Source of the DNA: Cylindrobasidium torrendii FP15055 ss-10
Lineage: Eukaryota > Basidiomycota > Agaricomycetes > Agaricales > Physalacriaceae
Length of the DNA stretch: 34,970 nucleotides
Reading direction: 5' to 3'
Assembly: GCA_000934385.1 (NCBI GenBank)
Contig: KN880678.1
Span: 1 to 34,970, forward strand
The notes beneath the pieces were generated by a model that was not told the origin of the DNA, searched no databases, and saw only the letters and a program-made list of their open reading frames with translations. This document shows positions 23,047 to 32,567 of this stretch, piece by piece. Each line of letters starts with the position of its first letter. The stretch's first letter is position 1. A program made the position numbers and the translations under genes.

Positions 23047-24871
23047 ATGGCTGTGGAAATGGCACAATACGAACTTCCCAGACACCGCAACCCCAGTCAC
23101 GACCAAACATGGGCCACACCGATTATAGGCCTCAATTCACATCCATATCCACCTGGCAGCGTCCCTGCATCAAATTCTGCTGTGTTCAACGATAGGAATG
23201 TCTCGAGGACGCCGAGTCCAACGCCCAGCGAGCAGAAAGAATTGGGATCGGGTGCCATTGATTGGAAGTCCATGGCAAGCTGGCGGTTTTGGCTACGGAG
23301 GGAATGGCTTTGTGCGTATCATTTATGCTTGATTCTGTTTTTCTGACGTTGCCAAGGGTATTATGTGGCATTTGTGCTCATTATGGTCATTACTGCACTT
23401 GTTACTCTGTACCACAAGCAGATTGTAGAATGGCTCACCCCCGTAACTGAATGGATGCACGAGTGCGTTGACCTTTCCCACATCATTCTATTGTCTCACT
23501 GGCTGTAGGCTGTCCTGGGGCTGGGTCATTCCAATTCTTGTTCTATTTGTGATATCGTTCCCCCCTCTCTTCGGTCACGAAATCGTCGCCGTCCTTTGTG
23601 GACTGGTCTGGGGACTCTGGATTGGGTTCGGTATTGTCTGTGCAGGTACCTTCATTGGCGAAGTTGGCAATTTCTAGTGCGTATTCCATATGCCCTCTGG
23701 TCGTAATTAACAATATCGCAGCGCTTTCAAGTACTGCTGCCGTGCTCGCGGCGAAAAGCTTGAGCGTACAAACATAAGCTATGCCTGTCTAGCGAGGGTC
23801 GTCCGCGATGGAGGTTTCCGAATAGCCCTTATCGCTCGTTTGAGCGCTATTCCTGGTCACTTCACCACCGCTGTCTTCTCAACTTGTGGCATGGGCATCT
23901 TTGTCTTCTCCATAGCTGCCATTCTCTCTATGCCGAAGCAATTCATCACTGTCTACCTCGGCGTTATTCTACACCAGTCATCATCTGGCACGCAGGATAC
24001 CAAGTCGCGCATCATTTCCGATGTTGTTATTGCGGTCACCTTTATCATTACTATCGCTGCGATGTGGTACATCTACCGCCAGATGAACAAAGTCAAGCCC
24101 GACATCATCTATGCGCGGCGCAAGGCCAGACAGGCGAAAATGGCCCGCGCGGCAGACGGCACATCACCGTACTCGTTCACTCCCGACTCGCAAACGTCGG
24201 AGATAAACCTCATCACTCCTCGTCCTCAGTATTCCTTCACTCCCAAGGGTACATCCACAGGCTCATCGCCAGTGTCTACGCCATATGCGCCTTACAAACC
24301 TACGCGCGCAAATAGCTACGGTTACAGCAAATCCGAGGACGCGATGTCCTCTTCAGATCACTCAACGACTGAGATGATCCCTGAATCGAGGGAGAGCGTG
24401 GATGTGACCTGGGACTCAGGACGACCAGAACCTTATGCACCGCCAGGGATCCCACCATCCTACGGGGCCCATCCATACGCGACCGCGGCACCGGTTCCCG
24501 TAACACCTACTACGCCTCGCGCCCCACCTACAGTCCCTTCACTTGAACAAACACCCTATGCTCGACGTGGACCGTCCCACCCAGCACTGCGAACCGGCTC
24601 GCATTCCCCATCAGGTCCTACTGCCGCGGAGGCTTACGCCGCATCATATACCTCGTCCCCTCAGATGTCCTATTCTACCTCTTCGCCTGCAACAATACCG
24701 TCGACGCCAACAAGATATGCACCGCCGGTGGGCACTCCAGGGATGTACAATCCCGACGCGCCAGATGACCCCAGAACGCCGCGTGCGCGCACTGGGTTCC
24801 ATGAAGTCGAACCGACGATGCAGTCGTATCACACGGCAGTGGAGTCTCAACCACCGCCGAGGTACTTCTAG
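23047..24871 (+). CDS. Tvp38/TMEM64-type (DedA, SNARE-associated) membrane protein
   Basis: Golgi/late-secretory membrane protein of the VTT (DedA) superfamily; relatives act in vesicle traffic or lipid scrambling. Exons: 23047-23311, 23357-23462, 23509-23676 and 23722-24871. They total 1689 coding bases (562 residues). Residues about 1-85 are a polar cytoplasmic N terminus. A helix (YYVAFVLIMVITALVTLY) follows, then the core: WVIPILVLFVISFPPLFGHE with GLVWGLWIGFGIVCAGTFIG, and VVRDGGFRIALIARLSAIPG (the conserved G-F-R-A-R-x-P signature). Then FSTCGMGIFVFSIAAILSMP and a last helix DVVIAVTFIITIAAMWYIY. The C-terminal 240 residues are disordered, rich in Pro, Ser, Thr and Tyr. The start could also be the Met at 23059. 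The stop codon TAG (24869-24871) is split by a transposon insertion: TA belongs to the target duplication and G is the first base of the element. Confidence 0.9.
24866..24870. repeat. Left target-site duplication, TTCTA
   Basis: TTCTA directly precedes the left inverted repeat and recurs directly after the right one (28867-28871). Because the next base on both sides is G, the shared run is TTCTAG. A 6-bp duplication with one base less of inverted repeat on the left is an alternative reading. Confidence 0.85.
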
Positions 24872-24902
24872 TGGTGGTGGGCACCGCCAGCCAAGTGATC
24901 GG
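24871..24902 (+). repeat. Left terminal inverted repeat (32 bp)
   Basis: Begins GTGGTGGTGGGCACC and ends AAGTGATCGG. Every base pairs with the reverse complement of 28835-28866. The homology stops abruptly after CGG. Confidence 0.95.
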
Positions 24903-25005
24903 CCATCAACCCCGGTCCGCTTGGCAGAGCGGGAAGCACTTTTGGCGCCGATGGATTTATGGGTCCTGGGCGACTCGAATCACTTAGCTCAAAGTGTACA
25001 GTCTT

Positions 25006-25011
25006 AATAAA
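25006..25011 (+). terminator. AATAAA polyadenylation-type signal inside the transposon
   Basis: AATAAA lies about 135 bases after the stop codon of the Tvp38/DedA-like gene and upstream of the transposase-like gene. Placed here it could end host-gene transcripts within transposon DNA. The assignment rests only on motif and position. Confidence 0.4.
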
Positions 25012-25061
25012 ATGATTTATCAAATATTCTCTTGCCTTCGAAATTTCGATAAATAATCTAT

Positions 25062-25077
25062 ACCTCGTGCTCGAGGT
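25062..25077. repeat. Short palindrome in the transposon 5' region
   Basis: ACCTCG-TGCT-CGAGGT forms a 6-bp stem with a 4-base loop, in the non-coding part between the left inverted repeat and the transposase-like gene. Role unknown. Confidence 0.5.
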
Positions 25078-25534
25078 GTATGCCCTACAGCAACTAATTC
25101 CGAAGCAAGGAGCAAGGACTATGAAAAATAAAGTAGAGGCAAGAAAATTTTCTTTGAGCATATAGGCACATATTTTGTCGATAAGGATGCTGATTCTGGG
25201 CGAGGTCAACTCACAAAAACTTAGCTTAGTGTCTAGTGGCTACATATTGGAGGTTTAACAGGTACAGAACTACCATTTTTTGGTGTTGAGCTTCGCATAT
25301 GCGCTACAAGTATGTTTGAATAATGACTCCAAGATATACAGGCTATAGCGAAGCTGTAATCACAATGTGAAGGGTGCCACCCAACTCGATCATGAATTGA
25401 TCTGCTTCTTACTTCCCGCCGCCGCGACAGCTTGTGCGTATTCTAACGAACTGACTCTCCTCTGCTGTTTTCCACTATCGTTTTCTTCTCTCTTCTCTCC
25501 CCTTGGCTGTTGTTTCTCTATGCTATAGCCCAGC

Positions 25535-28500
25535 ATGGCACGCTCAAAGGCTCAGAGGGCACAAACACGCAAGATTGCGTCTCATGGAGTCGAAATGAAG
25601 ACTTGCAAAATCCAAACGTCCTCTCGCTCTCTCGCTTCCGTCTCTTCCTCGCTGGCAGTGTCTCCTGCTACAAGGACTACTCGGTCTGGTCAACATCCTC
25701 AAATGGCACGCATATATCAGCTCGAAAAGGAAGCGCTGAATCTGGCTGACGATGTCTCGAAACTCACTGAAAAATGCTTGTCTCTCGAACTCCAGCTCGA
25801 ATCCGCTCATAAAACTACACATTCATCTGGTTCTAGCGCTAGTAAATGGTACTCTGAGGTCAGAAGTCTTCGAAAACGCATGAAGACATCCGAGTGCACC
25901 ATTGAAACGACCGCTCGACAAGCCGCACACGACGCCGAACGCATAAGCGACCTTGAGAGAAGTAACCTCGCGCTTCAAGGTGAAGTACAGCGGCTCCATG
26001 GGACAATATCCGACCGGAATCTCCGCCTACAACATGCTCATAAACAGCTCACTCTGGCGCGTTCTGAATCTCGAAAGCTGTGCCGCAAGAATCTTCGTAT
26101 CTCCCGTGCTCGTAGCATCGCTCGTCTCGAGGCCCGGGACGCATCAGCGAAGCGCACCTGGAAACTGATGGAGAAAGGTGTCTACACCACTGGTACTCGA
26201 GCGCTTGTACGCGAACTGAGGAGCTGTGGATGTAGCCGGGCAAATATTGGGAGGGCCATCGCTGCCTGTGGAAGAGCTGCGCAGCTGACGCTGGTAGGAA
26301 ATGTGAGTCGACGGACAGCTACGAGGTCGATTAAGGAGGGCGGGATTGCCGCAAAGGTGCAGATTGGATATGAAGTTTCTCGTGTCCATGGTATGTGGCC
26401 TTCAAATACCTGCATTGTTTCCTGACCTCAGCCATATTAGCTGTAAGCGGGAGCGGTGATTCGACATCCCACAAGAGTGTCGACTACGGTGCAGAACACA
26501 TTACGCTCCTTGCCCCAAATTACAAGGATCCTTCTCAGCCCGACATTCCAAAGACACGCGTGCTCGATATCTCCTCAAACCCGGGACACCGAGCTGAGCA
26601 TCAACGGGACAAGTTCGAGCAGCACATTGGCGAAATTGGATCGCTGCTGGCCAACTGCCCATTTGCGAAGCGCTATGGCATCGTCTTCACCGTCACCTCG
26701 TTTCTCAAAGTACTCAAAGGCTGGAACAGCGACCATGCGCCCGACCAGAAGAAACTTGTTCGCTTGGTCATCGGTTGGAAGGGCACCGCGCTCAGAATTG
26801 AAATGGGATACGATGAGTTGATCGAGTTGGACACTGGGGAGGCGCAGAAGCTTCTTGACAACGTTCGTGATGTATGTGAGGTGTCCGCGGGTGGGAAAGA
26901 GAAATGGAAGGCTCTTCCGGACGAGGAGCGCAATACAATCCGGAAGGCGTCGATGGACGCGTTGGCTTTGCGCCTTGGAGAGGAGAGGTACCAGGCACTG
27001 TCCAGCGAGGACAAACGTGATATGGATCTCTTCTTTTGGGCTGGATGCAGTATGCACAAGGAGCTGAATTCAGTTGTCGGTGGTGCCGCAGAGATGTCGA
27101 AGCATTGGGATGAGTTTGACCTGACACCGCCGGTCCTCCTTGCCAACAAGGACAACGATGCAGCAATCGAGTTCGCACGAGCATCTGGAGAGAGCTCCGA
27201 AGCTAGCAGGCGCGCTGAAAAGGAGTCAAGTAAGTCAAACCTTGGCCAATCTAATTCTTCTCTGCTAATACATGTGTAGAGCGCGGTGCAGGCAAGTTTA
27301 TCCAGCTTGCGGGAAGCTACTTTCGAAACAAGGATGACAAGAAAGGTGCGCACGATGACCATCGTGACTTCTTCTATGTACATGTTGGGGAGAATACACA
27401 GTTCCCCGACATCGCCAACTCGCGGTATCACACAATCTGCCTAGGTTGCGTTCGCGTATTCAAGTTCCTGGACCAGTATCGTCTCTTCATGGCCCAACAA
27501 CGCGACCGCAAGGGTGCCGCAAACTTCAGTCACATGGAGCAGAATGTGAACAAGTCTCTCTACGATACACCTACTATCGAAGAGGCTGTGTGCTATGGCA
27601 TGTACTACATGCTCATCACTGGCTCGTATGCTATCGCAATGCGTGGTGGTGGTACTAGCAACGCACTCAATATGCTCGAACAGGGACCATTCCACGAGAA
27701 TGTGCTCAATCACGTTCGCCGCCTCATCACGAATCCGCTCTGTATTTTCGGATACGGAACCGAGTCGTCTGACGAGCTCTTTGAATCATCCGTCTTTCTC
27801 GCGGGGGAAAAGGTACACGGGTGGCTCGATGTTGACTTTGTCGATGCCGTTCTCGCCAAGCATCGGTTGGGCGATCTCCCCAACCTTATTCCTCTTCTGA
27901 CACGCTTTCTAATTGGGACTCTCCAAAAGTGGATCGAGTTCACAGAGGAGTTTAGACCTGGGGGTGCTATTGCGACCGCTACTGCCGCGGAAAGGCAGTC
28001 TGTCCACATTCCCACTGCCAACGATGCGAACGAGGGCTTGTTGGGGTGCATGCGGCGGACCTTACGAGCCAGCAGTGTCACCATTGGCCAGTTCTGTCTC
28101 CAGGCCATGTACACTTACAACGGCACACAGGATTTCATGGATGCACTCTTTACCGAGGAGGACCACCGCTGGTTGCTCAAGACATGTCGCGAGATTGATC
28201 GTAGCGGGGAGGAGAAGCGACGACGCGAGGGGCTTGTTGAATACGGGAGGATGAAGGCGGTGGAGCATCGCAAGAAGCTGGCAGCCAGGGCAGATGCTAT
28301 GGCGGAGAAGGCACGGATTGTCAAGGAGACGGAGCTGTGCTTGGACCGCACCGAAGTGGACAAGATGACGAAGGACCAGCTTCAGAAGCAAATCAACGTA
28401 TGGCGGACCATTTTCGACGATGTCGCGAAGGCAGGCGCAATCAAGAACCGTCCGGAGAGGCTTTGTGAGGTTGTGAGGTGCATGGAGCGGTATCTCGACG

Positions 28501-28586
28501 ATATGGACACTGCAGCCACTGGGAGCGGTGAAAAGGACACGAACAATGGCTCTTTGGATGACGATATGGATGCTGATGACGAGTGA
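25535..28586 (+). CDS. Uncharacterised transposase-like protein of the TIR element
   Basis: Exons 25535-26390, 26441-27229 and 27280-28586, with two 50-nt GT-AG introns. They total 2952 coding bases (983 residues). The region at about residues 57-215 is a long coiled coil rich in Leu, Glu and Arg (for example LEKEALNLADDVSKLTEKCL). Residues about 220-285 are basic with a helix-turn-helix look (CSRANIGRAIAACGRAA, then VSRRTATRSIKEGGIAAKVQ). The core starts at VSGSGDSTSHKSVDY (D292) and continues with FFWAGCSMHKELNSVVGG (C488, H491), PPVLLANKDNDAAIEF (D523), HMEQNVNKSLYDTPTIEEA, NALNMLEQGPFHENV and IPTANDANEGLLGCMRR (D797, E800). A basic coiled C terminus ends in an acidic tail (LDDDMDADDE). 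I recall similar hypothetical proteins in many agaricomycete genomes. The position between perfect inverted repeats is the main evidence that this is the transposase. D292/D523/E800 as a DDE triad is inference. It lacks the Cys cluster I associate with KDZ transposases. Confidence 0.82.
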
Positions 28587-28834
28587 TGTATGTATACTGC
28601 GAGCGTTTCGATACTAATGCTTCCCATTGTAATTGCTTACCCTACCAAGATTGTAATATTGCTATAACTTGCTGTATATTTTTTTCTCAATTTTTTCCTT
28701 TGTTCATATGATAAAACATTGTAATTCGACCGTTTTGCACTCCAAGGTTTTTCTGTCGACGGTACAAGCAGTGCTTAACGCAGGCTGAGCGCGACTGTGC
28801 CGAAATTTCCCACGTGGTTGATGACTAACCCGGA
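28587..28834. other. 3' non-coding part of the transposon
   Basis: T-rich run (28680-28700) after the stop, likely the 3' UTR of the transposase-like gene. GC-richer subterminal DNA precedes the right inverted repeat. Confidence 0.5.
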
Positions 28835-28866
28835 CCGATCACTTGGCTGGCGGTGCCCACCACCAC
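28835..28866 (-). repeat. Right terminal inverted repeat (32 bp)
   Basis: CCGATCACTTGGCTGGCGGT...CACCAC, an exact reverse complement of 24871-24902. Confidence 0.95.
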
Positions 28867-28871
28867 TTCTA
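28867..28871. repeat. Right target-site duplication, TTCTA
   Basis: Directly follows the right inverted repeat and matches 24866-24870. With the next base G it also spells the old TTC-TAG end of the Tvp38/DedA-like gene, so it is the original 3' flank. Confidence 0.85.
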
Positions 28872-29486
28872 GACGCTAGATAAGTATTGTATGTCCCCGT
28901 ATTTTTCATGCTGTACATACGATACCCACTACCTCCATGATTTGATCACAGCGCTCTCACCCTCTCTTGTTCCCACTCCTCCTCCTCCTGGAATTCATCT
29001 ATACGTGCGGCTGTTGTCAGTTGCGGCGCTCTACATTGGTATATAGTTCTCTCTGTTTGGACACTGCTTGTGCCATCTCTTTCCGTTGTAGTCTGGACTA
29101 TTGTATATTTTGCGCAATAAATGGAACTGGACGTACCCTTCATGTGCAATTGCCTGGAATTGCCAGCCTTTTTGCTTGCGAGGGACTCGATAAGCTATTG
29201 ATTATGTGCATGGGCAAGCTGTTCCAGAGCTGTTCCTCGGAGAAGATACTAGTCGGCTTGCAAGCACAGGCTGCCATTATTTGATTATGACAGCTTTGGC
29301 AGAGCGAGCGTGGGTCACTTGCAGCTGCTACTAGCAACAGTCAGCGATCGATGAATGCATAGTGACTGTTCTTTAATCTCTAGGTGTCACTTGTCGCAAT
29401 CATTTCGGGGCATAACCTTAAGTGACATATCCTGTAAGTACAGATCATTTTCGATCATCGTCTCTCTTGAAGAAGACCTTCATGTC
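28872..29486. other. Displaced 3' flank of the Tvp38-like gene, then intergenic
   Basis: Starts with the sequence that would have been the 3' UTR of the gene at 23047-24871 before insertion, now about 4 kb away. The rest holds no gene I can support and leads into the first F-box-like gene. Confidence 0.5.
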
Positions 29487-30923
29487 ATGTCCCCCTCAAT
29501 TATCCAACCACCAGGGATTCCTCCGGAGCTTTTATCTTCTATCTTCAAACACGCATGTGACGACCGCTTGTACATTCACAACCTTGGCGACCTTCCATTC
29601 CAATGTACTATCGTGCAGGTGTGCCGACACTGGCGAGAAGTCGCCCTTGGAGACACTCGACTGTGGTCGAACATAACCATGAACATTGCTCACGCCAACG
29701 GTGATATTCCGAGATGGTGTAACGCATCTGTCATCCAACTGCTTGCCTTTGCAACCCAGCATGCCCGAGAATCACCACTGAACATGGTCCTGATCTTTGT
29801 GGATAGCACAGAAGAATCTAAAACAGGTGCAAGTCGTTTGTGCCCTCTCTTTCCGGCACTCCTGGCGACATTAGACCGTTGGCACCGACTGTGCGCTTTG
29901 TTGTTTGTCCAGAACACAAGCCAGCTTCCGATAGGCGAACTTTGCGCCAAGGCTGGGAATTTGGAGCGATTAGAGCTCAAAATCCATCAACTTCCGAGGC
30001 TCAAGGTGATTACAAAGGGCGGGCCATCTCTTCGCCACGTTGCATGCCAGTGGACGCCAGACCTTGTCCTTCCGTGGGGGCAACTGATAGAACTCATTCT
30101 CGAAGTGGAAGATTTGCCTTGTCTCGTGGATCTTGAGGCCTGCTGCAGCCTGGTATGGTTCTATCTGAGGCTGTCAAGATGGACCCGCGCAACGGCATCT
30201 GTCACCCGTATAGTCACCCTTCCGCTAGTAACCACGTTCAAGACCAACTCCCCAAGGATACTCGACATGTTTAACCTTCCTTCCGTCGTAACTCTCGGTT
30301 TAGAAGGCGCTGCTATCGCCCATGCGAGTACCGAGAACTTCGTTCACCGCTCTCGATGCTCGGTCAAAACACTTCTAGTCAAACATGTGTTCGACAAAGA
30401 CCTCGACCGTGTCATGACGGTTCTGCCATCCCTCACTTCTCAAATCAAGCATCTCGTCATCCACATCCGGCAAAGTCGCGTAGGCGCTACAGAACCTAGC
30501 GTAATGACTGTCCTCCGTAAACTCGCCGACCCCAGCGTTGCGACCCAGATGGAAACTTTGCGCATTAGGTCCAACTCCTTCGATGCTCCCATGGATGTAA
30601 ACAGCGTCCTTGCGTCCTTGTCCGACGTCGTTCGCGTGCGGCGGGAATGTAAGGACCCCCTGGAACGTGTTTTCCTCAAGATTTCTCGATGCGCACGGCT
30701 TTCTGAAGGCGACCCCACCAATTTGGAGATCCCACCAAAGCTCATCGAATGGAATGACGCGTGCAGGCCTATAGTTGGGATAGATGTTGAGGTTGAGCTC
30801 GGTAAACACCATGCAATCTGCTTGGGATTCTCTCTCACCGTGTCACAGCGAGGGGTGACAAGACTGTGTGGAGTGGTCTTCTACCAAATCCTCGGGGGAT
30901 GTCTATGCTACCTGCAGAGCTGA
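29487..30923 (+). CDS. F-box-like domain protein, paralogue 1
   Basis: 478-residue protein of the F-box-like families expanded in Agaricomycetes; such proteins are thought to act as substrate receptors in SCF ubiquitin ligases. The frame is open from 29355, but the ATG at 29487 (MSPSIIQPPGIPPELLSSIF) aligns with the start of the downstream paralogue and is preferred. The F-box is at residues about 8-60 (LLSSIFKHACDD ... IVQVCRHWREVALGDTRLW). The rest consists of degenerate leucine-rich, beta-helix-prone repeats (for example SLRHVACQWTPDLVLPWGQL) to the family end WNDACRPIVGIDVEVELG. After this, similarity to the paralogue continues through VFYQIL..CLCYLQS and stops at TGA, where the paralogue can be read further (in another frame) as FAECRASQVFVRPF. 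The C terminus therefore looks truncated, or an intron is missed. Confidence 0.8.
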   Translation: MSPSIIQPPGIPPELLSSIFKHACDDRLYIHNLGDLPFQCTIVQVCRHWREVALGDTRLWSNITMNIAHANGDIPRWCNASVIQLLAFATQHARESPLNMVLIFVDSTEESKTGASRLCPLFPALLATLDRWHRLCALLFVQNTSQLPIGELCAKAGNLERLELKIHQLPRLKVITKGGPSLRHVACQWTPDLVLPWGQLIELILEVEDLPCLVDLEACCSLVWFYLRLSRWTRATASVTRIVTLPLVTTFKTNSPRILDMFNLPSVVTLGLEGAAIAHASTENFVHRSRCSVKTLLVKHVFDKDLDRVMTVLPSLTSQIKHLVIHIRQSRVGATEPSVMTVLRKLADPSVATQMETLRIRSNSFDAPMDVNSVLASLSDVVRVRRECKDPLERVFLKISRCARLSEGDPTNLEIPPKLIEWNDACRPIVGIDVEVELGKHHAICLGFSLTVSQRGVTRLCGVVFYQILGGCLCYLQS

Positions 30924-31169
30924 GCAAAGCTCCGTGCGAGCCAAGCATTGCTCCATCGTTTAATTGGGGCGATTGAATTTGAATGCAATTTTTTTTGACT
31001 GTCTACCCGTACTCTGCTCCGTTGAAAGCTTATGGTCCTCCAGGGCGACATTGTTTTCTGGCTTGGTACTTGATACGACTCTTGCCACTGGTTGCCACTG
31101 AATGCGATAAGTATACGTCAGCATTTGATCGATCACCATTTCTTTCTCTTCTTAAGACGTTCATGTATC
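30924..31169. other. Spacer between F-box-like paralogues
   Basis: About 250 bases, the promoter and leader of the second paralogue. The segment just before each ATG is also similar between the two genes (cttcatgtcatg and gttcatgtatcatg), so the duplicated unit includes part of the leader. Confidence 0.5.
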
Positions 31170-32567
31170 ATGTCTCTCTCAATTGTCCACCCACCCGGAA
31201 TTCCCATTGCATTTCCTGCGGAGATCTTATCTTCTGTATTCGAGCATGCCTGCGATGATTCATTGTGCATCGACAACGACGGCGCGCTTCCCTTTCAATG
31301 TACTATCGTCCAGGTATGCCGTCTCTGGCGGGACATCGCATTCGGAGACACTCGGCTGTGGTCAAACATAACCATGTATATCACTTACTTCGACTGGGGC
31401 CATGATATTCCGGCACGGAGTATAGCATCTGCCATCCAGCTATTTGCCTTTGCGACCCAGCGCGCCCAAGAATTGCCACTCGACCTTCTGCTGAGACTCG
31501 ATGCCTCAGATAGAGACAGATTGCCTGATGCGGATCCTCCGGAGGCAGTCTTGAAGGCCCTGCTTGCGACATCAGCGCGTTGGCGCCAATTTTCGGCTTA
31601 CTTGGAGACACCTGAAGACACGATCCTTCTCCAAATGGGCCAAATTCTGGACAGAGCCGAGAATCTAGAGAAATTGGAAGTTTTTACTCTTCCGCTTCCA
31701 AAGCTAGGGATGGTCACAAAGTGCGGACCGTCTCTTCGCCACGTTGCGTGCCAGTGGGCCCCACACCTCGTCCTTCCATGGGGGCAACTGATACATTTAG
31801 AGCTCAAGTTCAAGATCGAAGTTCAAGATTTTCATCATATCTCGGATCTCGAAGCATGCCATGACCTGCGATGGCTAGATCTTGAGCTCGAGCTGTTAGA
31901 GACCGAGATAGCTGTACCCAATGTTGCCCGTGTGGTCACTCTTCCTTTGGTTTCCACATTCAAGACCAACTCCTCAGATGTAATCAACATGTTCAACCTT
32001 CCTGCTGTCGTGACCCTCGGTTTGCGAGCTGGCGCAGTCGCTCCTGCGAGTGTTGATAGCCTCATTCACCGTTCTCGATACATAGTCCGCACTCTCTTAA
32101 TGGATGAGGTGTATTACGAAGAGCTCGACCATCTCATGAAGGTCCTTCCGTGCCTCGCCTCTGAGATCAAACATCTCAAAATCGATATGCAACAGCACAG
32201 ATATCCCAAAAAAATCGGTATCATAACTCTCCTCAATCTGTTCGCCAACGTCGACATTGCCACGCGAATGGAATCACTGTGCATTGAATACTATTCTATG
32301 TGTATTCCTGTCGACTTAGACCACATCCTCGCGCGCTTGTGCGATGTCATTCACGGACGGTTATCCTGTGAGCAGCCTCTTCAACGTGTTTTCCTCAAGA
32401 TACATCTGCAAGGGGTGAGTTGGCGTCGTCGGCTTGAGGGCCTCATCACGGCATCAGATATTCCACCAAAACTAGTCGAATGGAATGATGCGTGTAGTCC
32501 TGTCGTCGGGATAGATATTGAAGCTATGCCAGGTGAGTGGCAGTATCCAGCATGCTCGGAGCTCTGA
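31170..32567 (+). CDS. F-box-like domain protein, paralogue 2
   Basis: 465-residue tandem paralogue of the protein at 29487-30923, with long identical stretches (CTIVQVCR, GDTRLWSNIT, GPSLRHVACQW, LVLPWGQLI, FKTNS). The start MSLSIVHPPGIPIAFPAEIL is chosen by alignment. The F-box is at residues about 12-65 and leucine-rich repeat-like sequence follows. As drawn, the gene ends at GEWQYPACSEL. After VEWNDACSPVVGIDIEAMPG, however, homology with paralogue 1 continues in another frame through FYQILEELSLYLQS, FAECRASQVFVRPF and IRCEGMDVWCMYALL to a TAA at 32754-32756. A short terminal intron (GTGAGT donor near 32532) or a frameshift is therefore likely, and the true end may be 32756. No membrane segment. 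Confidence 0.8.
   Translation: MSLSIVHPPGIPIAFPAEILSSVFEHACDDSLCIDNDGALPFQCTIVQVCRLWRDIAFGDTRLWSNITMYITYFDWGHDIPARSIASAIQLFAFATQRAQELPLDLLLRLDASDRDRLPDADPPEAVLKALLATSARWRQFSAYLETPEDTILLQMGQILDRAENLEKLEVFTLPLPKLGMVTKCGPSLRHVACQWAPHLVLPWGQLIHLELKFKIEVQDFHHISDLEACHDLRWLDLELELLETEIAVPNVARVVTLPLVSTFKTNSSDVINMFNLPAVVTLGLRAGAVAPASVDSLIHRSRYIVRTLLMDEVYYEELDHLMKVLPCLASEIKHLKIDMQQHRYPKKIGIITLLNLFANVDIATRMESLCIEYYSMCIPVDLDHILARLCDVIHGRLSCEQPLQRVFLKIHLQGVSWRRRLEGLITASDIPPKLVEWNDACSPVVGIDIEAMPGEWQYPACSEL

Follow-up and report, generated by a model that had tools for sequence, protein, structure and literature searches.

The 34,970-nt window analysed here (the whole stretch, positions 1 to 34,970 of contig KN880678.1, or C248, from assembly GCA_000934385.1 of Cylindrobasidium torrendii FP15055 ss-10, a mushroom-forming fungus of the Agaricales, Agaricomycetes) carries a ~4.0-kb element, hereafter element 1, in which a single transposase-like gene is enclosed by terminal inverted repeats (TIRs) with short direct repeats at its edges. 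The left TIR (24871..24902, plus strand) and the right TIR (28835..28866, minus strand) are identical at 32/32 positions in a pairwise end comparison; a repeat search delineated the inverted repeat as 33 nt (24870-24902 / 28835-28867). The chance expectation for such a pair in 35 kb is ~3e-11. The full direct repeat shared by both edges, ACTTCTAG, occupies positions 24864-24871 and 28865-28872.

The gene lies on the plus strand; its three exons join into 983 codons followed by TGA (28584-28586, the end of exon 3), with no internal stop. Exon 1 (25535..26390) encodes an N-terminal region, presumably a coiled coil, and a helical domain; matches of this region to ATG16 and ADIP models are below cut-off (for ATG16, E 0.0025 with 18.4 bits where 33.7 would be required). 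Both introns (26391..26440 and 27230..27279) are 50 nt long with GT..AG borders. Exon 2 (26441..27229) contains the candidate catalytic residues D292 (codon 26458-26460) and D383 (26731-26733) as well as a CxxH motif formed by C488 (27046-27048) and H491 (27055-27057), while exon 3 (27280..28586) encodes a predicted helical insertion and the candidate catalytic E800 (codon 28032-28034, motif NDANEG). The putative roles of these five residues are assigned from the predicted fold and from conservation; the candidate D, D and E are conserved in 16/16, 18/19 and 19/20 of the alignment rows covering them. The protein in the public record, CYLTODRAFT_381837 (P0001, 772 aa), begins at residue 212 of this reading and agrees with it from there on; D292 is its D81. 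The longer start of the 983-aa reading is plausible, since the N-terminus of a relative (P0002, 947 aa) is comparably long. The initial annotation had described an intact TIR transposon with perfect 32-bp ends and a single transposase-like gene of 983 codons and three exons without a stop; the ends, the direct repeats and the open joined frame were all recovered. Element 1 is complete and probably a recent insertion, and we infer that it may be mobile today.

A protein search of the genome returned, besides the gene itself, one diverged paralogue (C317:9987-12745, in four pieces, 26-35% identical). The paralogue lies within element 2 (C317:8844-13213, L017:1845-6214), which measures 4.37 kb end to end and has 54-nt TIRs identical at 52/54 positions. 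Both full elements of the genome are delimited as class II elements are, by TIRs bounded by target-site duplications (TSDs). The element 2 product matches the family profile over nearly its full length with 474 bits and keeps all candidate catalytic residues; because an in-frame TGA (L017:2979-2981) precedes the conserved part, this copy has either suffered damage or uses a later start. As element 2 has TIRs and a duplication of its own, inverted repeats around a gene of this kind are not a one-off. Element 1 looks the younger of the two, given its identical TIRs and open frame. The initial annotation had proposed searching the host genome with the TIR and the protein, and the outcome was divided: the protein led to a diverged paralogue of the same anatomy with other ends, while the exact 32-bp TIR was found nowhere else in the genome, which tells against the proposal by the strict test that the annotation had set. 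Searches with end DNA, made with left ends, found for each element only that element itself; the counts in this and the following pattern search are lower bounds. An 18-bp end pattern with up to 2 mismatches occurred at 7 places versus 5 for a reversed control and was exact only at the two ends of element 1; around the lone 1-mismatch place (C246), no more than 22/32 TIR positions were matched on either strand of a 5-kb stretch. A third, more diverged partial relative (C12:244257-244841, minus strand, hmmsearch E 7e-20) has the motif TNNANEG; this fragment runs off the contig end, so that its ends are not visible.

The length of the TSD depends on the register in which the edges are read. For element 1, 5 bp (TTCTA, 24866-24870 and 28867-28871), 6 bp, 7 bp (CTTCTAG, 24865..24871 and 28866..28872, no strand assigned) and 8 bp (ACTTCTAG) can all be read. 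In the 5-bp register the ends begin with GTGG and the TIRs are perfect; in the 7-bp register the left TIR begins at 24872, the ends read TGGTGG and the TIRs are still perfect. The 6-bp register puts the ends out of step and the 8-bp register puts them out of step by one base; perfect TIRs therefore permit just two registers, 5 or 7 bp. Element 2, readable at 5-7 bp, offers the same choice between TTATG (5 bp, with ATGG ends) and TTTATGA (7 bp, with TGGG ends), and an 8-bp reading does not work. A true 5-bp TSD mimicking 7 bp in both elements would need four lucky bases (1/256), a true 7-bp TSD two (1/16). On these odds, and because both elements then have the same TGG ends, 7 bp is favoured over 5 bp by about 16 to 1; the figure is our own estimate, assumes uniform flanks and rests on two elements, too few to close the matter. 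The initial annotation had placed TTCTA repeats just outside the TIRs. They are there, but as part of a longer shared repeat, and a 5-bp TSD with GTGG ends is one register among several; the 5-bp length is not established, 7 bp suiting both elements better. It had also ruled out hAT by TSD length, an unsafe step, since PMC12730594 describes hAT families (hAT5, hAT6 and hAT7, the last in rust fungi) with 5-, 6- and 7-bp TSDs; for hAT at large the length is 8 bp.

Two protein searches, in which 7,991 and 7,995 candidates were scored, gave at least 21 distinct members of the family, the query's own among them: the first search contributed 19 and the second two more, counts that are lower bounds. 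An organism name was available for 14 of the 20 other members, and all 14 are annotated 'hypothetical protein'. The named relatives come from six Mycena species (M. crocata twice), Artomyces pyxidatus (twice), Suillus weaverae, Auriscalpium vulgare, Ganoderma adspersum, Galerina marginata and Coniophora puteana. With one species looked up for each of the seven genera, the orders are Agaricales, Russulales, Boletales and Polyporales; the family spans no fewer than four orders within Agaricomycetes, the class in which it had initially been placed. None of 63 pattern matches in viral contigs and none of 32 in bacterial or archaeal contigs was confirmed as a relative. No earlier description of the family was found in open-licence PMC papers, a search that did not extend to Repbase. 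In the Auriscalpium vulgare relative (P0013) the second conserved aspartate reads N (TNHAANQ versus DHAxDQ), and by its sequence this copy may be inactive for that reason.

Searches against named families were blank at the level of sequence. None of the 21 members had a Pfam match above cut-off, the best sub-threshold match being to an unrelated oxidase model (E 0.034). The hAT dimerisation domain (PF05699) was absent from the matches of all 21 at E <= 1, whereas the fungal hAT protein P0022 matches it at 4.7e-21; the Kyakuja/Dileera/Zisupton (KDZ) domain PF18758 was likewise not among their matches. No PDB sequence matched at E <= 10, and an NCBIfam scan of four members and the fungal hAT gave no relevant match. 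With 13 fungal hAT proteins of one clade, profile-profile comparison by hhalign gave a probability of 0.1% (E 0.59); the values were 0.1-0.2% for six own-genome KDZ pieces, which cover the KDZ domain in part, and no more than 0.1% for six Plavaka proteins, and the positive controls (element 2, and the family split 4 versus 17) reached 100%. KDZ and Plavaka are plentiful in this genome (36 and 45 transposase match rows) and hAT is sparse (9 rows), and none of these rows falls on the contigs of elements 1 and 2 (C248 and C317). Profile and profile-profile tests reject membership in KDZ, Plavaka and hAT as judged by sequence; for Plavaka (PF18759), moreover, the TSD is 2-3 bp and here at least 5 bp. 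The comparison of hAT with KDZ and Plavaka was equally blank in hhalign, and the method is therefore blind to kinship between superfamilies: it establishes no more than that this is not a typical hAT, KDZ or Plavaka family. No named superfamily was recovered by profile search, in line with the transposase having been left unassigned in the initial annotation.

The predicted fold contains an RNase H core with the order beta-1, beta-2, beta-3, alpha, beta-4, beta-5, followed by CxxH, and a large all-helical insertion ahead of the helix with the catalytic glutamate; in the model, the features looked for as those of hAT, an RNase H core with CxxH and a helical insertion preceding the last E, are present. 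An additional helical segment of ~100 residues separates beta-4 from beta-5 in the prediction. The best fold match is Hermes, a hAT transposase, on which the helical insertion appears to align, judging from the aligned length; among viral matches, a hAT protein is the only one of significance. Foldseek also gave a weaker match (E 0.02) to ISCth4, which we take to be of the IS256 family. The fold matches listed include no P-element, RAG/Transib or MuDR structure, which does not exclude them. Overall, the predicted structure places the transposase closest to hAT. Its fold score is ~10 Z units below that of the fungal hAT yardstick, a one-sided yardstick that covers hAT only and whose model is of modest quality (pLDDT 68.6).

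We consider it very probable that element 1 is an autonomous ~4.0-kb cut-and-paste DDE transposon with a hAT-like fold, belonging to a separate hAT-related lineage whose rank may be that of a superfamily. The observations behind this reading are the TIRs, the direct repeats, the open gene, the second element, the relatives and the conserved motif residues, to which the predicted fold is added. The one gene would encode a DDE transposase with an RNase H core (D292, D383, E800) and CxxH after beta-5. By analogy with hAT, the transposase would bind the ~32-bp TIRs, cut the element out, probably via hairpinned flanking ends (a step modelled on hAT alone), and insert it at a staggered cut in the target; the resulting duplication would measure 5-8 bp, with 7 the most likely length. 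A separate lineage related to hAT seems the best treatment because hAT proper is too distant for the sequence profiles used. The wording of a DDE transposon with a hAT-like fold, perhaps of superfamily rank, was chosen because hAT5-7, Kyakuja with its 7-bp duplications and the C/DxxH group are already known. The stronger proposal, an undescribed eukaryotic superfamily sister to hAT, defined by an RNase H fold interrupted twice (by helices between beta-4 and beta-5 and by the hAT-type insertion), a 7-bp TSD, TGG..CCA ends, an Agaricomycetes-wide range and invisibility to profiles, we put forward tentatively, at slightly less than even chances. Superfamilies of eukaryotic DNA transposons number about two dozen (24 in Repbase according to PMC12730594) and are delimited largely by sequence. 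Two of the groups treated there and in PMC10045372, IS481EU and IS3EU, have mostly 4/15-bp and 6-bp duplications and TGT and TA ends.

The strongest competitor is that element 1 is just a divergent hAT element, similar to hAT5 or hAT7, with no separate group to be recognized; it falls only a little behind the proposal of a new superfamily. The Hermes and viral hAT matches argue for it, as do the existence of hAT5, hAT6 and hAT7 with their shorter TSDs and C-x-x-H followed by L-N, which recalls RCFAHTLNL of an own-genome hAT. Likenesses to Hermes and to the clade of P0022 are the predicted strand order, CxxH, all-helical insertion and glutamate helix, the TIR ends, and a duplication within the 5-8 bp given for hAT subgroups. 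Points against it are the lack of profile similarity to the 13 fungal hAT proteins of one clade, the missing Dimer_Tnp_hAT domain (0/21 members) and the lower fold score. Two further differences from hAT are the predicted segment between beta-4 and beta-5, and ends that read TGG or GTGG here versus the CAGGG type of hAT.

Far less probable is a diverged KDZ element. KDZ is abundant in this genome and class, and PMC12730594 gives Kyakuja a 7-bp TSD; the same paper reports Kyakuja without TIRs, whereas those of element 1 are long and perfect. None of the 36 Pfam KDZ rows lies on its contig, and the hhalign result tells against KDZ as well, though the fold was compared with hAT only.

Equally improbable is another superfamily with the C/DxxH motif, namely MuDR, P, Kolobok or Dada, all four compared through Pfam and PDB only. 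Kolobok duplications are TTAA and those of MuDR 9-10 bp, which do not fit; the absence of Pfam matches above cut-off in all 21 members and the apparent alignment of the helical insertion on Hermes argue against such a placement, the ISCth4 match for it. The motif itself, which also speaks for it, occurs in hAT, Kolobok, P, MuDR, Dada and IS256 (PMC3706591). The same paper describes Dada, which has 6-7 bp duplications and a C/DxxH-type motif, as lacking TIRs and targeting small RNA genes; element 1 has perfect TIRs and lies where a protein gene has its stop codon, and Dada was set aside. So was Transib, which would share a 5-bp TSD if that register holds: Transib ends start with CAC, whereas those here read GTGG/TGG (element 1) and ATGG/TGGG (element 2), and there is no Pfam or PDB sequence match. 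Chance repeats or an assembly artefact flanking some uncharacterized host gene, which the single occurrence of both the exact TIR and the gene might suggest, can be dismissed in view of the expectation of ~3e-11, the paralogue, which repeats the anatomy although its ends are unrelated and its duplication differs, and the predicted DDE core.

When a lineage keeps its ends and genes intact yet matches no profile, annotation leaves its genes as 'hypothetical proteins', and structure prediction is able to tie such genes to known transposases. Resembling hAT in predicted shape only, the lineage would be a group of mobile DNA missed by sequence-based annotation. Its extra insertion offers a natural variant for studying the tolerance of the RNase H core and the control of duplication length, and copies with perfect ends are candidate gene tools for mushrooms.

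The insertion point of element 1 coincides exactly with the stop codon of a gene (23840-24871) for a VTT-domain membrane protein of the TVP38/TMEM64 type (PF09335, E 3.3e-11). The duplicated CTTCTAG contains the TAG stop (24869-24871); the insert therefore leaves the frame of this gene unchanged and alters only what follows the stop. Downstream of the element lie two neighbouring long open reading frames, at 29355-30923 with an F-box-like domain (2.8e-6) and at 31092-32567, which matches the same F-box-like model with 22.1 bits, slightly below the cut-off of 24.3.
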